This document shows, piece by piece, positions 3,431 through 38,707 of a stretch of 51,290 bases of DNA; positions within the stretch are counted from its first letter, which is position 1, and the number at the start of each line of letters is the position of its first letter. The position numbers and the translations under genes are program-made. Source of the stretch: a virus; IMG/VR virus record IMGVR_UViG_3300046512_000094, positions 1 to 51,290 of that record; one strand, written 5' to 3'. The notes beneath the pieces are model-generated. The model was not told the DNA's origin and ran no database searches. It was given only the letters and a program-made list of their open reading frames with translations.

Positions 3431-5839
3431 TTATGGCGTGACAGTGGTAGGCGGCAGCTCGACAGGCTTCGGCTTTGCTGGCTGAGGCGTCTGATCTGTC
3501 GTGAGATAGGTGATTGGGCCGACCGTGCGGATTTGGTTCTGCGCATCTTCGCCTAGGGCGGCAAACCACTTCCGGTAGGCCAGGGTGCGCATGAGTTGTG
3601 CCTCCCGCGCTTTCATCCGGCCGATCTGGGCACCATCGGTGCTGGTTGCTGTGTAGATGGCGTCACGGAATTTTGGGCTGGCGATCAGTTTCTCTGCCGC
3701 TTCTTTTATAGGCGTCTTCTCTTTCGAAAACGCAGTAGACAGCACGCCGATGGTCCCGGCGCCAGGAAAGCCCAGCGTACTGGTTACGCCTTCCGCCGCC
3801 CCGGCCTTCTTGCTGACATCCCAAACCCTCGACAGCAGCCCGCCCTCGTCGGCGTATTGCTCGAGCAGATTTATCGAGTTGAGGCGCCCTGTGGTGATTC
3901 GCTCTTTCGATGCCTCGCGCATGCCTCGCGCTACCGTCGCAATGTCGTCCAGCGTCTTTGCCGCGTCGGCGGGCAGGTATTGGGTCAGTCGATTCTTCGC
4001 TGCGCCGTTTCGACTGAGGCTGTCGTACCAGTCCACAAAGCCTGGTGCGCTGAGTTGCTGCTGCGCCCCGCTCCGCTTCGTAAAAGCATTGTTCAGGGCG
4101 GTCAGTACGGCTTCCTGGCGCAAATTGGCCGGTATCAGCGTGACCAGCTTGTCGAAATCCTTGAAGTTTCCGCTGCCCAGTTTCTCCACGGCCGAACCGA
4201 AGGTCGAACTGATAGACCCAGACATGTCCTTGCCGATGGCCTGGATCAATCCATCCTCCAGCCCCTTGCGCTGGGCGACGACCGATTTTGCCGCGGTAAA
4301 GATGTTCCCGACACCGGCGGCGTCCGCGACCGCCTGCTGGTCCTTGCTGAGATTGGCGTATAGAGCATCCAGGGTGCGGGAACTGGAGTTGGCGAACGGC
4401 CCGCGCCCCTTGTACCCATCGCCGACGGACTTACGAACCGAATCAAGCGCCGCGTAGGTCGGGTGTGTGGTGATTGTCTGGACTGTGCCGGGGATCAGCG
4501 GGTTTGGAACTGTCTCGACCTTTGGTGAGAGGATATTGAGGGCCTTTCGCTCGTCAGCCGACAGCAGCGGAGCGCCCCCGAAGTCTGCCGAGCGCCCCCG
4601 GATGTAGCTGATCGTCGAATCAGCCGGCGCCTGGGTCTGGGCCGGGATTGCCTTCGACACATTCGAATAGAGGTCTTCAGCCTGCTTGTTCAGCCCCTGG
4701 ATAGTGCTTTGGCTTTGAGTTCGGAATTTGTCGGAGAATGCGCTTTTGTCCAGAGACCCGCCGTATTGCACGATGAGATCATCGGCTTTCTGCGCCAGAG
4801 CTGCATACGACTCCTTCTGCTGGGCGTTCAGTACGCTACCAGGCACCGAAGCCAATGCCTGCTCAATCTCCCGATAGGACTGGCTGCGTGAATACTGTGA
4901 TGGGATCAGCTTCTCTTTCAGCCCTAGCCGGTCAGCAGCACCAAGGATTTCTTGGTTGGGCGCCACCTCTTCTGCCAGGTCGGCGACTTTCTGTGCCTGT
5001 GTGCGCGGAGTGGCCTGAGCAGCATCGGCTGCCGCCCTGACCGCGCCAGCCTGCTCCGACGCCACGTCAGCCGTTCCGCCCGCAGCGTTCGCAGCGGCTT
5101 GATCATTACGGGCGGTCTGGATGGCTGCCTGCTGAGTCGTTAGCTCGGCCTCGGTCTTGTTCGCCGCGTTGCGGGTGAGCGCCCCGGCGCCGCCGATAAC
5201 TGCCGGGAGCGCAGCGCCCAGGACGCCACCAATTGCCGCTCCCTTTGCGGCCTCAGGCAGACGCTCAAGCGGGTCGCCCTCGGCCGAGCCCAGCCCGTAG
5301 GCTGCACCGTATCCGGCGCCATACAACGCACCCCGACCCACATTGGCGGCAAGACTAGCTCCCGCCGTGGTGCCGCCGGTCAGAACGGCGGGTGCAATAC
5401 CGCCGACTATCCCGCCGGCAATGGTTGCTACCGGGTGCTGGTCCTGTGCGGCCTTGAGAAGGCCGCGCTGCTCATCGACGTTCTTGTCGAAACGGTCGCC
5501 GAACGATTCGCTGCTGTCGCCGGTACCGAAGACTGGCTGCAAGGCTGCTTTAGCGCCACCGACAAGTTCATCAGAAAAGCCGAATGTAAGGCCGTCACCA
5601 GCTCCACGCAGGAATGCTTCGCCTGTGCCGACGTCTGGCGGCTTAACGTAATTGTAGGCTTGCGGGCTGGCCGGGCTGTTTGCCGGAGCAGTGACGGCGC
5701 CAGGTGGCGCTGGCGCTACAACCGGGTCAGCGTCCCATGCATTAGCGGCCACAGTGGCCACAGGCTGCGACGCCGCAGATGGGGGCGCCACCGCAGTTGC
5801 AGCGGGCTGAACAACCGGATCCTCATCCCACGCGGCCAT
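3431..5839 (-). CDS. Large internal virion / DNA-ejection protein, 802 aa
   Basis: The N-terminus carries two copies of a WD(E/A)DPVV motif (residues 4-10 and about 35-41) in an Ala/Pro-rich linker, then a Gly/Ala-rich hydrophobic domain (about residues 135-225: TIAGGIVGGIAPAVLTGG, YGAGYGAAYGLG) of the type that can enter membranes, then a long Ala/Gln-rich helical body. Podoviruses eject such proteins ahead of DNA to form a channel. It overlaps the stop of the 652-aa ejection gene by one base (TAATG). No lytic transglycosylase motif was recognised. Confidence 0.75.
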   Translation of the reverse strand: MAAWDEDPVVQPAATAVAPPSAASQPVATVAANAWDADPVVAPAPPGAVTAPANSPASPQAYNYVKPPDVGTGEAFLRGAGDGLTFGFSDELVGGAKAALQPVFGTGDSSESFGDRFDKNVDEQRGLLKAAQDQHPVATIAGGIVGGIAPAVLTGGTTAGASLAANVGRGALYGAGYGAAYGLGSAEGDPLERLPEAAKGAAIGGVLGAALPAVIGGAGALTRNAANKTEAELTTQQAAIQTARNDQAAANAAGGTADVASEQAGAVRAAADAAQATPRTQAQKVADLAEEVAPNQEILGAADRLGLKEKLIPSQYSRSQSYREIEQALASVPGSVLNAQQKESYAALAQKADDLIVQYGGSLDKSAFSDKFRTQSQSTIQGLNKQAEDLYSNVSKAIPAQTQAPADSTISYIRGRSADFGGAPLLSADERKALNILSPKVETVPNPLIPGTVQTITTHPTYAALDSVRKSVGDGYKGRGPFANSSSRTLDALYANLSKDQQAVADAAGVGNIFTAAKSVVAQRKGLEDGLIQAIGKDMSGSISSTFGSAVEKLGSGNFKDFDKLVTLIPANLRQEAVLTALNNAFTKRSGAQQQLSAPGFVDWYDSLSRNGAAKNRLTQYLPADAAKTLDDIATVARGMREASKERITTGRLNSINLLEQYADEGGLLSRVWDVSKKAGAAEGVTSTLGFPGAGTIGVLSTAFSKEKTPIKEAAEKLIASPKFRDAIYTATSTDGAQIGRMKAREAQLMRTLAYRKWFAALGEDAQNQIRTVGPITYLTTDQTPQPAKPKPVELPPTTVTP

Positions 5840-7855: not shown

Positions 7856-7955
7856 GGACTGTCTACAAAAACAGGGTGGACATAAGACCAGCTTCACCGA
7901 AGCGTGTCGCCGTAGTAGCGTTTGGCCTCCTTACTGAAAGCGACAAGGATGTACG

Positions 7956-33533: not shown

Positions 33534-34650
33534 TGCTCTCACCTCCGGCTGTGATCATGGCGTGGGCGTGCTGGGCGGCGTTGATGTTGGCCTGGGTGTT
33601 CTCCATCTGGCGGGCAGTGACGGCGTTGACCTGTCGGCCGGTGATCCACTGCGTTCGAATCCCTTCCGCCCTGGCGACCAGCAGGCCGAACTCATGCGAG
33701 GACCGGATGAAGAACGAGTCGTTGATGGTCACGTAGAAAGCGGCAACGTTCGGCGCCTCTTCAGCCCCGAGGCGCTGCACAAGCTGGGCCACCTGGCCGT
33801 TGACCTTCGCGTTCCGTACCGGCTCAACGCTGTAGCGGTCGAAGTAGGCGTTGGCATACGCAGCCCAGGTGTTGCTGTTGGCAATCTGCGATGGTGTCTT
33901 TTCCTTCGCCGCCTTGGGCTTGAGCACCTTCACGTTCGACGCGCCCGGAGCGGAAGCGACTGGCAAGGGCTTTTGATCTTGGATCGGAGAAGCGGGAATC
34001 AGAGAATCAGAAGAGAGGGAATCAAGAGAGAGGGAATCAGTAGGGCAAGGGGTTGCATGGTTGTCGCAACGTTGAGCCATTCTTGAGTCAACGTTGGATC
34101 GACGATGATCAGACGTTGAATCGCCCTTGATCGAATTACAGGTCGAGCACAGAGTCTGCAGGTTTTCAGACGAATTATCGCCACCCTTAGCGAGCGGGAC
34201 GATGTGATCAATCGAAAGCCTTTCGGTATCTCCGCAGCGCAAGCACGTATGGTTGTCGCGGGCGAAAGTTGACTCCCTGAGCGACGGAGACACGTCGTAA
34301 GAGTGTCGTGTCATTTGAGCGCGACCCGGCGGCGCAGGGATTACGCTCGCAACTTCCTTATGGTGAGGCATTTGATGCTTCGTGAAGCTGTCGATTTGCA
34401 GATAGCGTTTCCCATCAATCTCGTATCGCTGAATGAACCCGAATTCAGCTAAGTCATTGAGCATGCGATCAACATCTACGCTGTCAGCTGGGAACAACGC
34501 CATGCGCAAACGCTTCGGACGATCTTCAAGGCGTCCCTCCCGGTCTGCCTCGGTCCACATACCAATGAAAAGAAGGCGCGTGGCAAAGTCCAGCTCTGCC
34601 AGATGCTCGTTCGAAAAGAAGCCTGGTTTGATGTTGCGGGAACGTGCCAT
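33508..34650 (-). CDS. O-like replication initiator with an internal HNH domain
   Basis: 380 aa from ATG 34650 (TGATG overlap with the antirepressor gene). Residues 1-100: winged-helix initiator type (MARSRNIKPGFFSNEHLAEL, DFATRLLFIGMWTEADREGR, DSFTKHQMPHHKE). Residues about 115-178: a zinc HNH endonuclease (C136, C139, D148-H149, C168, C171). Then a Ser-rich linker whose DNA contains iteron-like repeats, and a C-terminal domain (NTWAAYANAYFDRYSVEPVR). Initiators of this family usually have only a linker where the HNH sits. Confidence 0.8.
   Translation of the reverse strand: MARSRNIKPGFFSNEHLAELDFATRLLFIGMWTEADREGRLEDRPKRLRMALFPADSVDVDRMLNDLAEFGFIQRYEIDGKRYLQIDSFTKHQMPHHKEVASVIPAPPGRAQMTRHSYDVSPSLRESTFARDNHTCLRCGDTERLSIDHIVPLAKGGDNSSENLQTLCSTCNSIKGDSTSDHRRSNVDSRMAQRCDNHATPCPTDSLSLDSLSSDSLIPASPIQDQKPLPVASAPGASNVKVLKPKAAKEKTPSQIANSNTWAAYANAYFDRYSVEPVRNAKVNGQVAQLVQRLGAEEAPNVAAFYVTINDSFFIRSSHEFGLLVARAEGIRTQWITGRQVNAVTARQMENTQANINAAQHAHAMITAGGESNAFLRRNR
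33994..34039. repeat. Iteron-like direct repeats inside the initiator gene
   Basis: Four copies of GRGAATCA starting at 33994, 34002, 34017 and 34032 (spacing 8, 15, 15). Lambda places its origin iterons inside gene O at the same relative spot, so this is a candidate origin. The repeats encode the Ser/Leu/Asp-rich linker; a simple low-complexity coding stretch is the alternative. Confidence 0.4.
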
Positions 34651-36022: not shown

Positions 36023-36247
36023 TTAAGCGGCAGTTAAAGGCTGTTTTTCTGGAGGGAAAGCGTCGTCCAGTGCGCACTTGGCGCCCAGAGCGTTTAAAGC
36101 CTTGACGATGAGTCGGGCCTCACTAAGCCCTACACAGCGCAGGCCGGACTCGTAGTTCGCCAGGCGGGATTGATTCCAGCCGAGCGCCCGGCGCAGTGCT
36201 GCCTGTGTGACGCCAGCCCTCTCGCGGATCATTCGGACTTGATTCAT
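36023..36247 (-). CDS. Cro-like repressor, 74 aa
   Basis: Start at 36247 set by GGAGGAGC seven bases upstream. Helix-turn-helix of the XRE/Cro type: MNQVRMIRERAGVTQAALRR, ALGWNQSRLANYESGLRCVG. Divergent from cI; its promoter PR holds the OR2-like operator in the spacer. It would shut off cI and tune early transcription. Confidence 0.85.
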   Translation of the reverse strand: MNQVRMIRERAGVTQAALRRALGWNQSRLANYESGLRCVGLSEARLIVKALNALGAKCALDDAFPPEKQPLTAA

Positions 36248-36267: not shown

Positions 36268-36315
36268 AACACAGGATAAACACGCATCGTGTTAAAGGCA
36301 AACACAATAAGTGAA
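36268..36315. promoter_or_regulatory. OR region: PR and repressor operators
   Basis: Minus-strand PR: TTGCCT (36296-36301), 17-bp spacer, TATCCT (36273-36278). A perfect operator AACACG-CAT-CGTGTT (36279-36293) fills the spacer. Flanking weaker sites: AACACAGGATAAACA (36268-36282) and AACACAATAAGTGAA (36301-36315). Near-identical operators occur at 38529-38567 (OL). Confidence 0.75.
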
Positions 36316-36350: not shown

Positions 36351-37181
36351 ATGAACGAATCTTTAGCGCAGCGCATAAAGCGCCTCAGGAAAAAAGCTGG
36401 CCTATCGCAGGCTCAGCTAGCGGAAGCGTGCGGCTGGAAGTCGCAGTCTCGTGTTGGTAATTACGAAGCAGGCACGAGGGAGCCGAACCTGGCTGACATA
36501 GCCTCGATAGCTAAGGCGCTCAAGATCGACGAATTACAACTGTTGATGAGTCTTCCTTCCGCAGAGTATGGACAGCTCGACTTTCCTTCACTTCACGCCC
36601 CCGCCGAACCAGTCAGCGCCGCTGATGCCGTGAGAGCAATGCTTGCCAAGAGCGGGAAGAATGTGCCGGAAGCCTTGAGGCAAAAGATTATTGCTGTGGC
36701 AGAAAGCGAATCCAGCAATGTCATAACCGGGGACTTCTCCCGACCCGGCCTTGTCGGTGACGAGGTTTGGATCGCTCACTACGACATTCGCGGCGCAATG
36801 GGCGGTGGCCAGTCAGTCCATGACTTCCCGGAAATGCTCAAGGACATCCGAGTCAGCCCGAGCCACCTGCGCGAACTGGGTGTTGAGTTCGACGAGCACT
36901 ACCACCTGAAGCTTGTGACAGGCTGGGGCCAGTCAATGGAGCCGACGATCAAGCATCGCGACCCGCTGATCGTGAATGTCCACGTCCGCGACTTCATCGG
37001 TGACGGCATCTATCTATTCTTCTGGGACGATCACGTTTACATCAAGCGACTGCAGGTTGCTGACGAGGATCATTTCGAGATGATCTCGGACAACATCAGG
37101 CATAAGGATCGGCTGATTCGCCGGGATATGACCTACGTCCAGGCGCGCGTGCTGCTTGTTTGGAATGCGCACCTTTTGTGA
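36351..37181 (+). CDS. CI-type repressor, XRE domain plus S24 peptidase domain
   Basis: 276 aa. Residues 1-65: XRE helix-turn-helix (RIKRLRKKAGLSQAQLAEAC, GWKSQSRVGNYEAGTREPNL). Residues about 130-270: LexA/S24 fold with catalytic Ser195 (GWGQSMEPT) and Lys232 (HVYIKRL). Between the two domains I see no Ala-Gly or Cys-Gly pair, the usual self-cleavage site; the only AG pairs are inside the HTH. The ATG lacks a ribosome site and follows an inverted repeat TTCAAT/ATTGAA, so its translation may be leaderless or controlled. Confidence 0.9.
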   Translation: MNESLAQRIKRLRKKAGLSQAQLAEACGWKSQSRVGNYEAGTREPNLADIASIAKALKIDELQLLMSLPSAEYGQLDFPSLHAPAEPVSAADAVRAMLAKSGKNVPEALRQKIIAVAESESSNVITGDFSRPGLVGDEVWIAHYDIRGAMGGGQSVHDFPEMLKDIRVSPSHLRELGVEFDEHYHLKLVTGWGQSMEPTIKHRDPLIVNVHVRDFIGDGIYLFFWDDHVYIKRLQVADEDHFEMISDNIRHKDRLIRRDMTYVQARVLLVWNAHLL

Positions 37182-37224: not shown

Positions 37225-37935
37225 ATGGCGCGAAGTGATTGGGTGGTATTCGTCGACGAGAGCGGCGATCACAGCCTTGAGTCGATCGATGACAATTACC
37301 CTATTTTTGCTCTCACCTTCTGCCTGATCCACAAGGACGAATACATTGATCGGCTGATGCCGAAGGTCAACCGGCTGAAATTCGATCTATTTGGGCACGA
37401 TCACGTTGTCTTTCATGAATCTGAGATCGTTCGTAAGAAGGGACGGTTTTCAAAGATGGGGAAGGACGATCGAGATGCTTTGCTTGAGCGGTTGTCAGAG
37501 ATAATCGACGCAACGGATTTCGATATCTTCGCTGTGATCATCGATAAGAAGCGCCATAAAAGCCGCTATGCAGATCCAGGCCATCCCTACCATCTCGCAA
37601 TGCAGTTTGGTTTGGAGCGGATTTACAAACACCTGATCGGCCTTGGCGCCCACGCCAAAGAAACTCACTTTGTATTCGAGGCCAGGGGCGGCAAGGAAGA
37701 CGCTGATCTTGAGCTGGCTTTCAGAAGGGTTTGTGACGGCGCGAACTGGGGCCAGAAAAAATATCCCTTCGAGATATGCATAACTGACAAGAAGACAAAT
37801 TCTGTCGGCCTTCAGATTGCTGATCTTACGGCACGCCCAATTGGGCTTTCTGTGCTGCGTCCCGATCAGCCCAACAGGGCATACGATATCTTGAAGACGA
37901 AGATCGGGCGTTACGGAAAGAAGGTTTTCCCATAG
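37225..37935 (+). CDS. DUF3800 protein behind cI, 236 aa
   Basis: Family landmarks: the opening VVFVDESGDHSLESIDDNYP with an acidic motif (FVDESGD), IFALTFCLIHKD, FDIFAVIIDKKRHKSRYADP and the late NSVGLQIADLTARPIGLSVL with QxADL. The fold is RNase H-like with conserved Asp residues. The gene follows cI by 43 bases on the same strand, so it is expected to be expressed in the lysogen. Such cI-linked genes are often exclusion or defence functions. Mechanism of DUF3800 is not established. Confidence 0.8.
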   Translation: MARSDWVVFVDESGDHSLESIDDNYPIFALTFCLIHKDEYIDRLMPKVNRLKFDLFGHDHVVFHESEIVRKKGRFSKMGKDDRDALLERLSEIIDATDFDIFAVIIDKKRHKSRYADPGHPYHLAMQFGLERIYKHLIGLGAHAKETHFVFEARGGKEDADLELAFRRVCDGANWGQKKYPFEICITDKKTNSVGLQIADLTARPIGLSVLRPDQPNRAYDILKTKIGRYGKKVFP

Positions 37936-37948
37936 CCCAGAAAGCGAA

Positions 37949-37977
37949 AGGCCCCTGAGTCAAAGTCTCAGGGGCCT
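37949..37977. terminator. Terminator between convergent cI/DUF3800 and DUF1654 units
   Basis: An 11-bp perfect stem AGGCCCCTGAG/CTCAGGGGCCT with a 7-base loop. T runs are weak on both sides, but position between two convergent transcripts supports the call. The rest of 37978-38104 shows no gene. Confidence 0.6.
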
Positions 37978-38104: not shown

Positions 38105-38425
38105 TCAGAAAGGCGCCGCCGCCTCTGCCTCAAATGCATCGTCCACTTCGACCGGACGCTCCGCATCAGGATCAGCCTCCCAGCGCAGCGTCACCGAATC
38201 ATCCTCGTCGTTGAAAGTCATCTCGATGCCGTCTGTTGCAGATAGCACGCCCATCACCTCCTCCCACTCTCTGTCCCCGTCAGTATCCAGTCGATGGATT
38301 GTTGCCCAGCGCCGCTCTTGGGCGATCGGGTGATTGATCATCGACGACACGCGCAGCCCCAGCCGCTCTACCCCGCTCATTTCCTGCCTCGACGCCGGTC
38401 TCGACTGCTTATGCGCCTTCGCCAT
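38105..38425 (-). CDS. DUF1654 protein under LexA control, 106 aa
   Basis: Start at 38425 (MAKAHKQSRPASRQEMSGVE) set by AAGGAGAAT; the upstream part of the frame is not gene-like. Family pattern: RQEMSGVERLGLRVSSMINH, ERRWATIHRLDTDGDREWEE, TDGIEMTFNDEDDSVTLRW, acidic tail. DUF1654 is typical of Pseudomonas and its phages. A LexA box overlaps the upstream region, and the gene stands alone on the minus strand inside the immunity region, the position of SOS-induced antirepressors such as Tum of phage 186. Functional link is a hypothesis. Confidence 0.8.
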   Translation of the reverse strand: MAKAHKQSRPASRQEMSGVERLGLRVSSMINHPIAQERRWATIHRLDTDGDREWEEVMGVLSATDGIEMTFNDEDDSVTLRWEADPDAERPVEVDDAFEAEAAAPF

Positions 38426-38440
38426 TTCAATTCTCCTTAG

Positions 38441-38456
38441 CTGTACATATATCCAG
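38441..38456 (-). promoter_or_regulatory. LexA (SOS) box
   Basis: CTGTACATATATCCAG, flanked by TA on the right, matches CTGT-N8-ACAG-type LexA sites. It ends 16 bases before the DUF1654 start codon. Only convincing LexA box seen in the intergenic regions. Confidence 0.75.
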
Positions 38457-38528
38457 TAATAGCAAAATAATAGCTCGACCACGAAGCGGGCGTAAACAGA
38501 TTTCCGCCGTGTTTGTTTGCGAAAATAA

Positions 38529-38570
38529 ATCACATTATGTGTTGACGAAATAAACACGATGCGTGATAGT
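38529..38570 (+). promoter_or_regulatory. OL region: early left promoter PL with two operators
   Basis: PL: TTGACG (38542-38547), 17-bp spacer, GATAGT (38565-38570). Operator AACACG-ATG-CGTGAT (38553-38567) fills the spacer, and a second, inverted site ATCACATTATGTGTT (38529-38543) overlaps the -35. These match the OR sites, so CI and Cro should control this promoter. Drives the plus-strand early genes after a leader of about 280 bases. Confidence 0.75.
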
Positions 38571-38707
38571 TCACTCCATCGAGCCACTACAGCGACTCGC
38601 CAGGGCCTCAATCGGGTCTGCGCTCTTTCACAACTTAGACCGCCGAGCCTTCAGGCATAGAAGGCCAGCAGACCCAACAGGGCGAGCTGCAAACAGGTGT
38701 GACGGCC

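Follow-up and report, generated by a model that had tools for sequence, protein, structure and literature searches.

A LexA-boxed DUF1654 gene in the immunity region of a temperate Pseudomonas phage, a candidate SOS-induced effector of the CI repressor

Results

Organization of the immunity region

The window, i.e. the whole stretch of DNA analysed here, is a 51,290-base virus record from a temperate Pseudomonas phage, and was compared with a set of about 200 related viruses. Its immunity region comprises, in this order, a cro-like gene, OR, cI, a DUF3800 gene, a hairpin, the DUF1654 gene, a LexA box, OL and a left operon on the plus strand (Table 1). The motif AAACACNNTNNGTG is found at OR and OL with 0–2 mismatches, and every match with 0–1 mismatch is confined to these two regions; because these operator-like sites flank it, the DUF1654 gene lies inside the immunity region. 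Together, cI and DUF1654 enclose a hot spot for cargo, about 0.04–4.3 kb long and with a content mostly unrelated from phage to phage: it holds the DUF3800 gene in the window and a BrnT/BrnA-like pair in LESphi3. Elsewhere in the window, the product of the gene at 34650–35477 matches Phage_pRha (Rha regulatory protein) barely over the cut-off.

Table 1. Features of the immunity region, with their positions in the window
Feature	Position	Strand	Basis
cro-like HTH gene	36023..36247	minus	domain match
OR, CI operator-like sites	36278..36313	none	motif matches
cI, HTH + S24 repressor, 276 aa	36351..37181	plus	domain matches; AlphaFold model
Met150-Gly151 codons, expected cleavage site	36798..36803	plus	alignment with F116 and LESphi3 CI
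DUF3800 gene, cargo between cI and DUF1654	37225..37935	plus	PF12686, E 7e-16
Terminator-like hairpin downstream of DUF1654	37949..37977	minus	sequence only
DUF1654 gene, 106 aa	38105..38425	minus	PF07867; ATG + AAGGAG; 72-sequence alignment
Codons of acidic -AAPF C-terminal tail, SSB C-terminus-like	38108..38137	minus	C-terminal residues; disorder prediction
LexA box CTGGATATATGTACAG, LexA1-type, 31 bp before DUF1654 start	38441..38456	minus	consensus + family matrix
DUF1654 promoter, sigma-70-like TTTACG-18-TATTAT	38467..38496	minus	consensus match only
OL, CI operator-like sites, overlapping a pL-like promoter	38528..38565	none	motif + promoter consensus

When taken from the TTG codon at 38611, the DUF1654 open reading frame is overextended; translation probably starts at the ATG at 38425, just behind an AAGGAG (38438–38433, minus strand), and the stop is at 38105. 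The protein matches PF07867 over residues 18–84 (E 3.4e-22, 78.4 bits against a curated Pfam cut-off of 27) and is strongly conserved. PF07867 was the only Pfam profile that matched, Tum and DinI (PF06183) being among those that did not. The protein falls in PHROG 2707, a group without assigned function, and the literature search found DUF1654 named in one paper, again without assigned function. A fold search against the PDB gave no match with E<0.001, the best being R3H-like domains at a TM score of about 0.4, and the search against viral structures returned weak matches only (best E 0.006), mostly to uncharacterised phage proteins; a DUF1654 profile run against PDB sequences gave no convincing match and the PADLOC search no match. 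In record BK061478, the DUF1654 gene at 5001–5258 is misannotated as an HslU protease subunit.

A conserved LexA box precedes DUF1654

The box CTGGATATATGTACAG sits just downstream of the sigma-70-like promoter. No other site in the window differs from the LexA consensus CTGTATATATATACAG at 3 positions or fewer; shuffled windows contain on average 0.03 such sites, and at least one was present in 3/100 shuffles. On a matrix built from DUF1654 boxes, which includes CTGGATATATGTACAG itself, it scores 25.0 bits, compared to 12.5 for the next independent site of the window and 16.6 for the top score over 20 shuffled windows. A LexA box was found before each of the first 85 DUF1654 loci (85/85). Counting as a box CTG-N10-CAG located 24–50 bp ahead of the start, it is present in 195/196 phage or prophage DUF1654 genes (152/153 distinct proteins), with a near-fixed spacing to the start, for a chance expectation of about 2% (0.02 per gene; the background of 556 sites in 3.86 Mb includes the DUF1654 boxes). 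It also precedes all 44 DUF1654 copies in named Pseudomonas genomes. As the same matrix recovers the tandem boxes of the lexA promoter and the recA box in three Pseudomonas genomes, the DUF1654 box is a host LexA box. The box thus adjoins a predicted promoter and is kept in relatives, and control of DUF1654 by LexA is strongly supported by these comparisons. An earlier note on this DNA, made from the sequence alone, had placed a LexA box right before a lone DUF1654 gene between OR and OL, and this description holds for the window and its relatives.

Two further LexA-like sites were discarded. A perfect CTGT-N8-ACAG at 7859–7874 of the window (CTGTCTACAAAAACAG), in the structural-gene region, scores 8 bits on the family matrix, within the range of shuffles, and is probably due to chance. 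In CF60a-like phages, what resembles a LexA box behind cI is probably the 12-bp palindrome CTGTATATACAG of the adjacent toxin-antitoxin pair; this palindrome, found between cI and the BrnT-like toxin gene (L228, 6480–6620; L083, 5900–6120), looks like a toxin-antitoxin operator imitating a LexA box.

The CI repressor and its expected cleavage site

CI matches HTH_3 and Peptidase_S24 in Pfam and retains Ser195 and Lys232, i.e. the domains and the Ser-Lys dyad of the lambda CI type, without the Ala-Gly or Cys-Gly scissile pair. Its residues 150–151 are Met-Gly, and the same alignment column is Ala-Gly in the CI of F116 (AAGDG) and of LESphi3 (AAGGG). The AlphaFold model places this Met-Gly within a low-confidence loop between strands. 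With cleavage dipeptides assigned by alignment, residue 150 is Met in 156 and Leu in 10 of the 166 distinct relatives that lack Ala-Gly, and Gly151, Gly153, Ser195 and Lys232 are invariant in all 166 of these Met/Leu-Gly proteins. As the dyad is kept in every one of them, a dead peptidase is hard to reconcile with these data. The earlier note was therefore right that CI has the catalytic Ser and Lys but no canonical cleavage pair; its further step, that CI is non-cleavable, is doubtful in view of the invariant dyad and of a position 150 restricted to Met and Leu. In phage PotUPM1 (2379–2873), CI is annotated as a 164-aa protein without an S24 domain, and still adjoins a LexA-boxed DUF1654.

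DUF1654 accompanies several types of CI

In the IMG/VR loci, the named phages and the Pseudomonas genomes, DUF1654 lies inside the immunity region and is always oriented toward cI. With such a layout, convergent transcription from the DUF1654 promoter could reduce the expression of cI, and the protein would be incidental; the constant orientation suits this idea, for which the strong conservation of the protein, the variable cargo between the two genes and, in the window, the terminator-like hairpin between them leave very little room, and we regard it as highly improbable.

When loci were fetched by their CI regardless of DUF1654 and had enough flank, 73/74 of those seeded with the Met/Leu-Gly CI alignment had a DUF1654 gene that converges on cI at no more than 6 kb, the lone exception carrying a broken DUF1654 remnant with a stop codon. 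The raw contrast with Ala-Gly CIs (73/74 versus 38/57) is mostly due to redundant copies of one Ala-Gly clade: once duplicates are removed, DUF1654 accompanies 63/64 distinct Met/Leu-Gly and 21/24 distinct Ala-Gly CIs (Fisher p=0.06). Strict compensation, in which DUF1654 would occur only where CI lacks Ala-Gly, is rejected by these 21 cases. F116 and LESphi3 both combine an Ala-Gly CI with a LexA-boxed DUF1654, so replacing a lost cleavage cannot be its sole role; the F116-like phage phiC725A is inducible by mitomycin (PMC5217972).

Conversely, two phages have a Met-Gly CI without DUF1654. In Marin (CI ASMGKG), the 49.9 kb read contains a single good LexA box, CTGTATATGCGTACAG (region 3885–4229), located before a different small ORF without assigned family (3885–4175). 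This single case fits the idea that such CIs need some LexA-linked gene. UFJF_PfDIW6 (CI SMGPG) carries Arc-like genes and a gene with an antirepressor domain, and its scan with the family matrix gave no good LexA box.

DUF1654 is inherited with the CI C-terminal domain

Distances were correlated over 193 DUF1654/CI pairs. DUF1654 distances correlate with those of the CI C-terminal domain at r=0.66 (0.51 without Ala-Gly CIs), compared to r=0.40 (0.34 without Ala-Gly CIs) between the N- and C-terminal domains of CI. In the 437 comparisons with DUF1654 identity of at least 90%, the CI C-terminal domain is never below 50% identity, and the N-terminal domain is in 26.5%. In the 743 comparisons with DUF1654 80–97% identical, the cargo is unrelated in 97% and the outer-side DNA is largely unrelated, more than half of it being aligned in just 2%. 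Where DUF1654 is 80–97% identical and the cargo unrelated, the CI C-terminal domain is nonetheless at least 70% identical in 84%, versus 29% for all pairs. Such co-inheritance across exchanged DNA is what a protein acting on that domain predicts, and these comparisons support a functional link of DUF1654 to CI, although residual linkage, or recombination anchored in the two conserved genes, may be part of the source of the co-inheritance. One clear exception was found: the P. aeruginosa phages P52 and D14S (CI SMGPG) and P54 (CI VAAG) share nearly the same DUF1654, and the CIs of P52 and P54 could be aligned only locally, at 23–27% identity, that of P54 being P22-like by eye.

The co-inheritance is compatible with a positive or a negative effect on CI. 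DUF1654 could be a co-repressor, or a damper in a feedback loop, whose binding to the S24 domain strengthens repression and resets the switch after mild damage, in the manner of DdrR and UmuDAb; DdrR is indeed a small protein that is induced by damage and has an S24-type repressor as partner (PMC7273328). If such a damper were produced only after damage, it would nevertheless oppose induction, and no other LexA-linked inducer was seen in these phages, which makes this role very unlikely.

An acidic tail ends most phage DUF1654 proteins

A Pro-Phe end after an acidic stretch, the arrangement of the SSB C-terminal peptide, was found in 161/191 distinct DUF1654s. This acidic-PF tail, predicted to be disordered, is present in 155/163 proteins paired with a Met/Leu-Gly CI and in 0/22 paired with an Ala-Gly CI, the latter perhaps forming one clade and hence not 22 independent events. 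The same loci contain 9,670 further distinct ORFs of at least 100 aa, of which only 4 have such an end, all four with SSB-like tails; the host SSB ends in DFDSFDDDIPF. The tail is not universal in phages with a Met-Gly CI, since it is absent from the DUF1654s of phi297, PACL, D14H and D14S.

From these counts and the predicted disorder, DUF1654 could be proposed to be mainly a mimic of the SSB C terminus, its tail filling after damage the SSB-binding pockets of RecO, RecQ, ExoI, PriA, chi and others, so that host repair is diverted or replication proteins are recruited to the phage. Yet the residue ahead of PF is usually Ala and not Ile/Leu, and the tail is missing from the DUF1654s of Ala-Gly-CI phages, of phi297 and D14S and from the chromosomal paralogue, which means that the core function must lie elsewhere; we consider this proposal unlikely.

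A LexA-boxed paralogue on Pseudomonas chromosomes

PF07867 was matched in 130/150 Pseudomonas genomes, and the top matches are chromosomal copies, not prophage ones. In the three genomes examined, the chromosomal gene lies near asparaginase-like and ribose-operon-like genes (named by eye). A LexA box was found at all 33 chromosomal loci checked (33/33), with no CI adjoining, and the protein stops directly after the core domain; this gene is apparently an unstudied SOS gene of Pseudomonas. Outside the genus, DUF1654 was found in 2/115 other genomes of the order, the better match being also LexA-boxed. Judged by its boxes, DUF1654 as a whole is a LexA-regulon family.

This makes a DinI-like modulator of RecA the main rival explanation: DUF1654 would be the Pseudomonas counterpart of DinI, a small acidic SOS-induced modulator of RecA filaments or of the SOS response, and the phage copy would prolong or tune RecA activity so that cleavage of CI and LexA favours induction. 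The distribution is that of DinI, a LexA-controlled chromosomal copy together with phage copies, and extends to the distant boxed copy outside the genus, DinI itself being matched in 0/80 Pseudomonas genomes. Such a role suits Ala-Gly and Met-Gly CIs alike and explains why unrelated CIs have DUF1654 in common; in addition, the DinI gene adjoins the antirepressor gene in Gifsy phages and is fused to it in Tum (PMC3121763). What it leaves unexplained is why DUF1654 and the CI C-terminal domain stay together when the DNA around them is exchanged; it also requires a cleavable CI, and DUF1654 has no Pfam DinI match. The order of helices and strands in DinI, which we take to differ from that in DUF1654, counts against this role as well, and we hold it to be rather unlikely.

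Discussion

A proposed role in prophage induction

The reading that we favour, at a probability of about 0.45, is that DUF1654 is an SOS-induced effector that acts on the C-terminal domain of CI and thereby triggers induction. In the lysogen, LexA bound to the box just past the promoter would hold DUF1654 off, as expected from the usual role of such boxes. Upon inactivation of LexA by RecA, the 106-aa protein would be made and would act on the S24 domain of its own CI, which would leave OR and OL and allow lytic transcription. Two routes can be envisaged, a Tum-like block of dimerisation or of DNA binding, and a stimulation of CI self-cleavage at Met/Leu-Gly. Where DUF1654 is paired with a Met/Leu-Gly CI, its acidic -APF tail might be an added docking peptide resembling the SSB C terminus, for a putative partner.

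Several observations argue against such an effector. The same LexA-boxed gene stands beside Ala-Gly CIs, near-identical versions (P52/D14S and P54) stand beside unrelated CIs, and most Pseudomonas genomes have a LexA-controlled paralogue without CI; moreover, the fold searches gave no match to any antirepressor, and Marin and UFJF_PfDIW6 have Met-Gly CIs and no DUF1654. Of the Tum-like antirepressor proposed in the earlier note, the LexA control and a tie to CI are supported, whereas the CI-less paralogue and the occurrence of DUF1654 beside Ala-Gly and unrelated CIs do not fit a simple analogue of Tum.

A more specific version would make DUF1654 a repressor-specific co-protease, whose binding to the S24 domain triggers self-cleavage at Met/Leu-Gly without direct action of RecA, the SSB-like tail docking it at damaged DNA to the repair proteins of the host. 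An invariant Ser-Lys dyad without Ala-Gly would thereby be accounted for, as would the inheritance of DUF1654 and the CI C-terminal domain as a pair; this is a speculative proposal and quite unlikely to be correct.

Most sampled genomes of Pseudomonas and many Pseudomonas prophages contain DUF1654, to which no function is assigned. Were it an SOS trigger, a protein switch, and not RecA acting directly on CI, would set off induction in a whole class of prophages, and the relief of S24 repressors of the Met/Leu-Gly type, as well as cross-talk between the chromosomal copy and resident prophages, would become testable.

Comparison with known systems

LexA-controlled antirepressors are an established mechanism, exemplified by Tum, AntC and Gfo/Gft (PMC3121763), and the conserved box would give DUF1654 the same LexA-controlled expression. 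Like DUF1654, Tum of coliphage 186 and its relatives in Fels-2 and PSP3 is a small phage protein under direct LexA control, and the relief of CI is what we propose for DUF1654. However, DUF1654 is not recognisably related to Tum by sequence. Tum has a half that resembles DinI, DUF1654 has a host chromosomal paralogue, and the CI of the window, in contrast to the Tum system, has an S24 domain in which the Ser-Lys dyad is intact. GfoA and GftA of the Salmonella Gifsy phages and AntC of N15 are likewise LexA-controlled small proteins, and the Gifsy antirepressors were shown experimentally to bind and inactivate the repressor (PMC3121763). These are encoded outside the immunity region and target repressors of about 136 aa without a cleavage domain, whereas DUF1654 lies inside the immunity region and travels with the S24 domain of CI. 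DUF1654 is thus predicted to be Tum/GfoA-like in its control logic; by sequence it falls outside the Tum family, and its candidate repressor partner is of a different kind.

Other likenesses are partial. The DinI family (PF06183) also consists of small LexA-controlled proteins with chromosomal and phage copies, but DUF1654 differs by its lack of a Pfam DinI match, by its tie to the CI C-terminal domain and by its presence in a genus where DinI was absent from 80 genomes. With the SSB C-terminal peptide (DDDIPF), DUF1654 shares the acidic stretch followed by the terminal Pro-Phe, carried on a different core domain and with Ala, not Ile/Leu, before PF. Finally, DdrR of Acinetobacter, which we liken to DUF1654 from its description, is a genus-restricted small damage-induced protein with an S24-type repressor partner (PMC7273328); unlike DUF1654, it is a co-repressor, and is controlled by UmuDAb and not by LexA.
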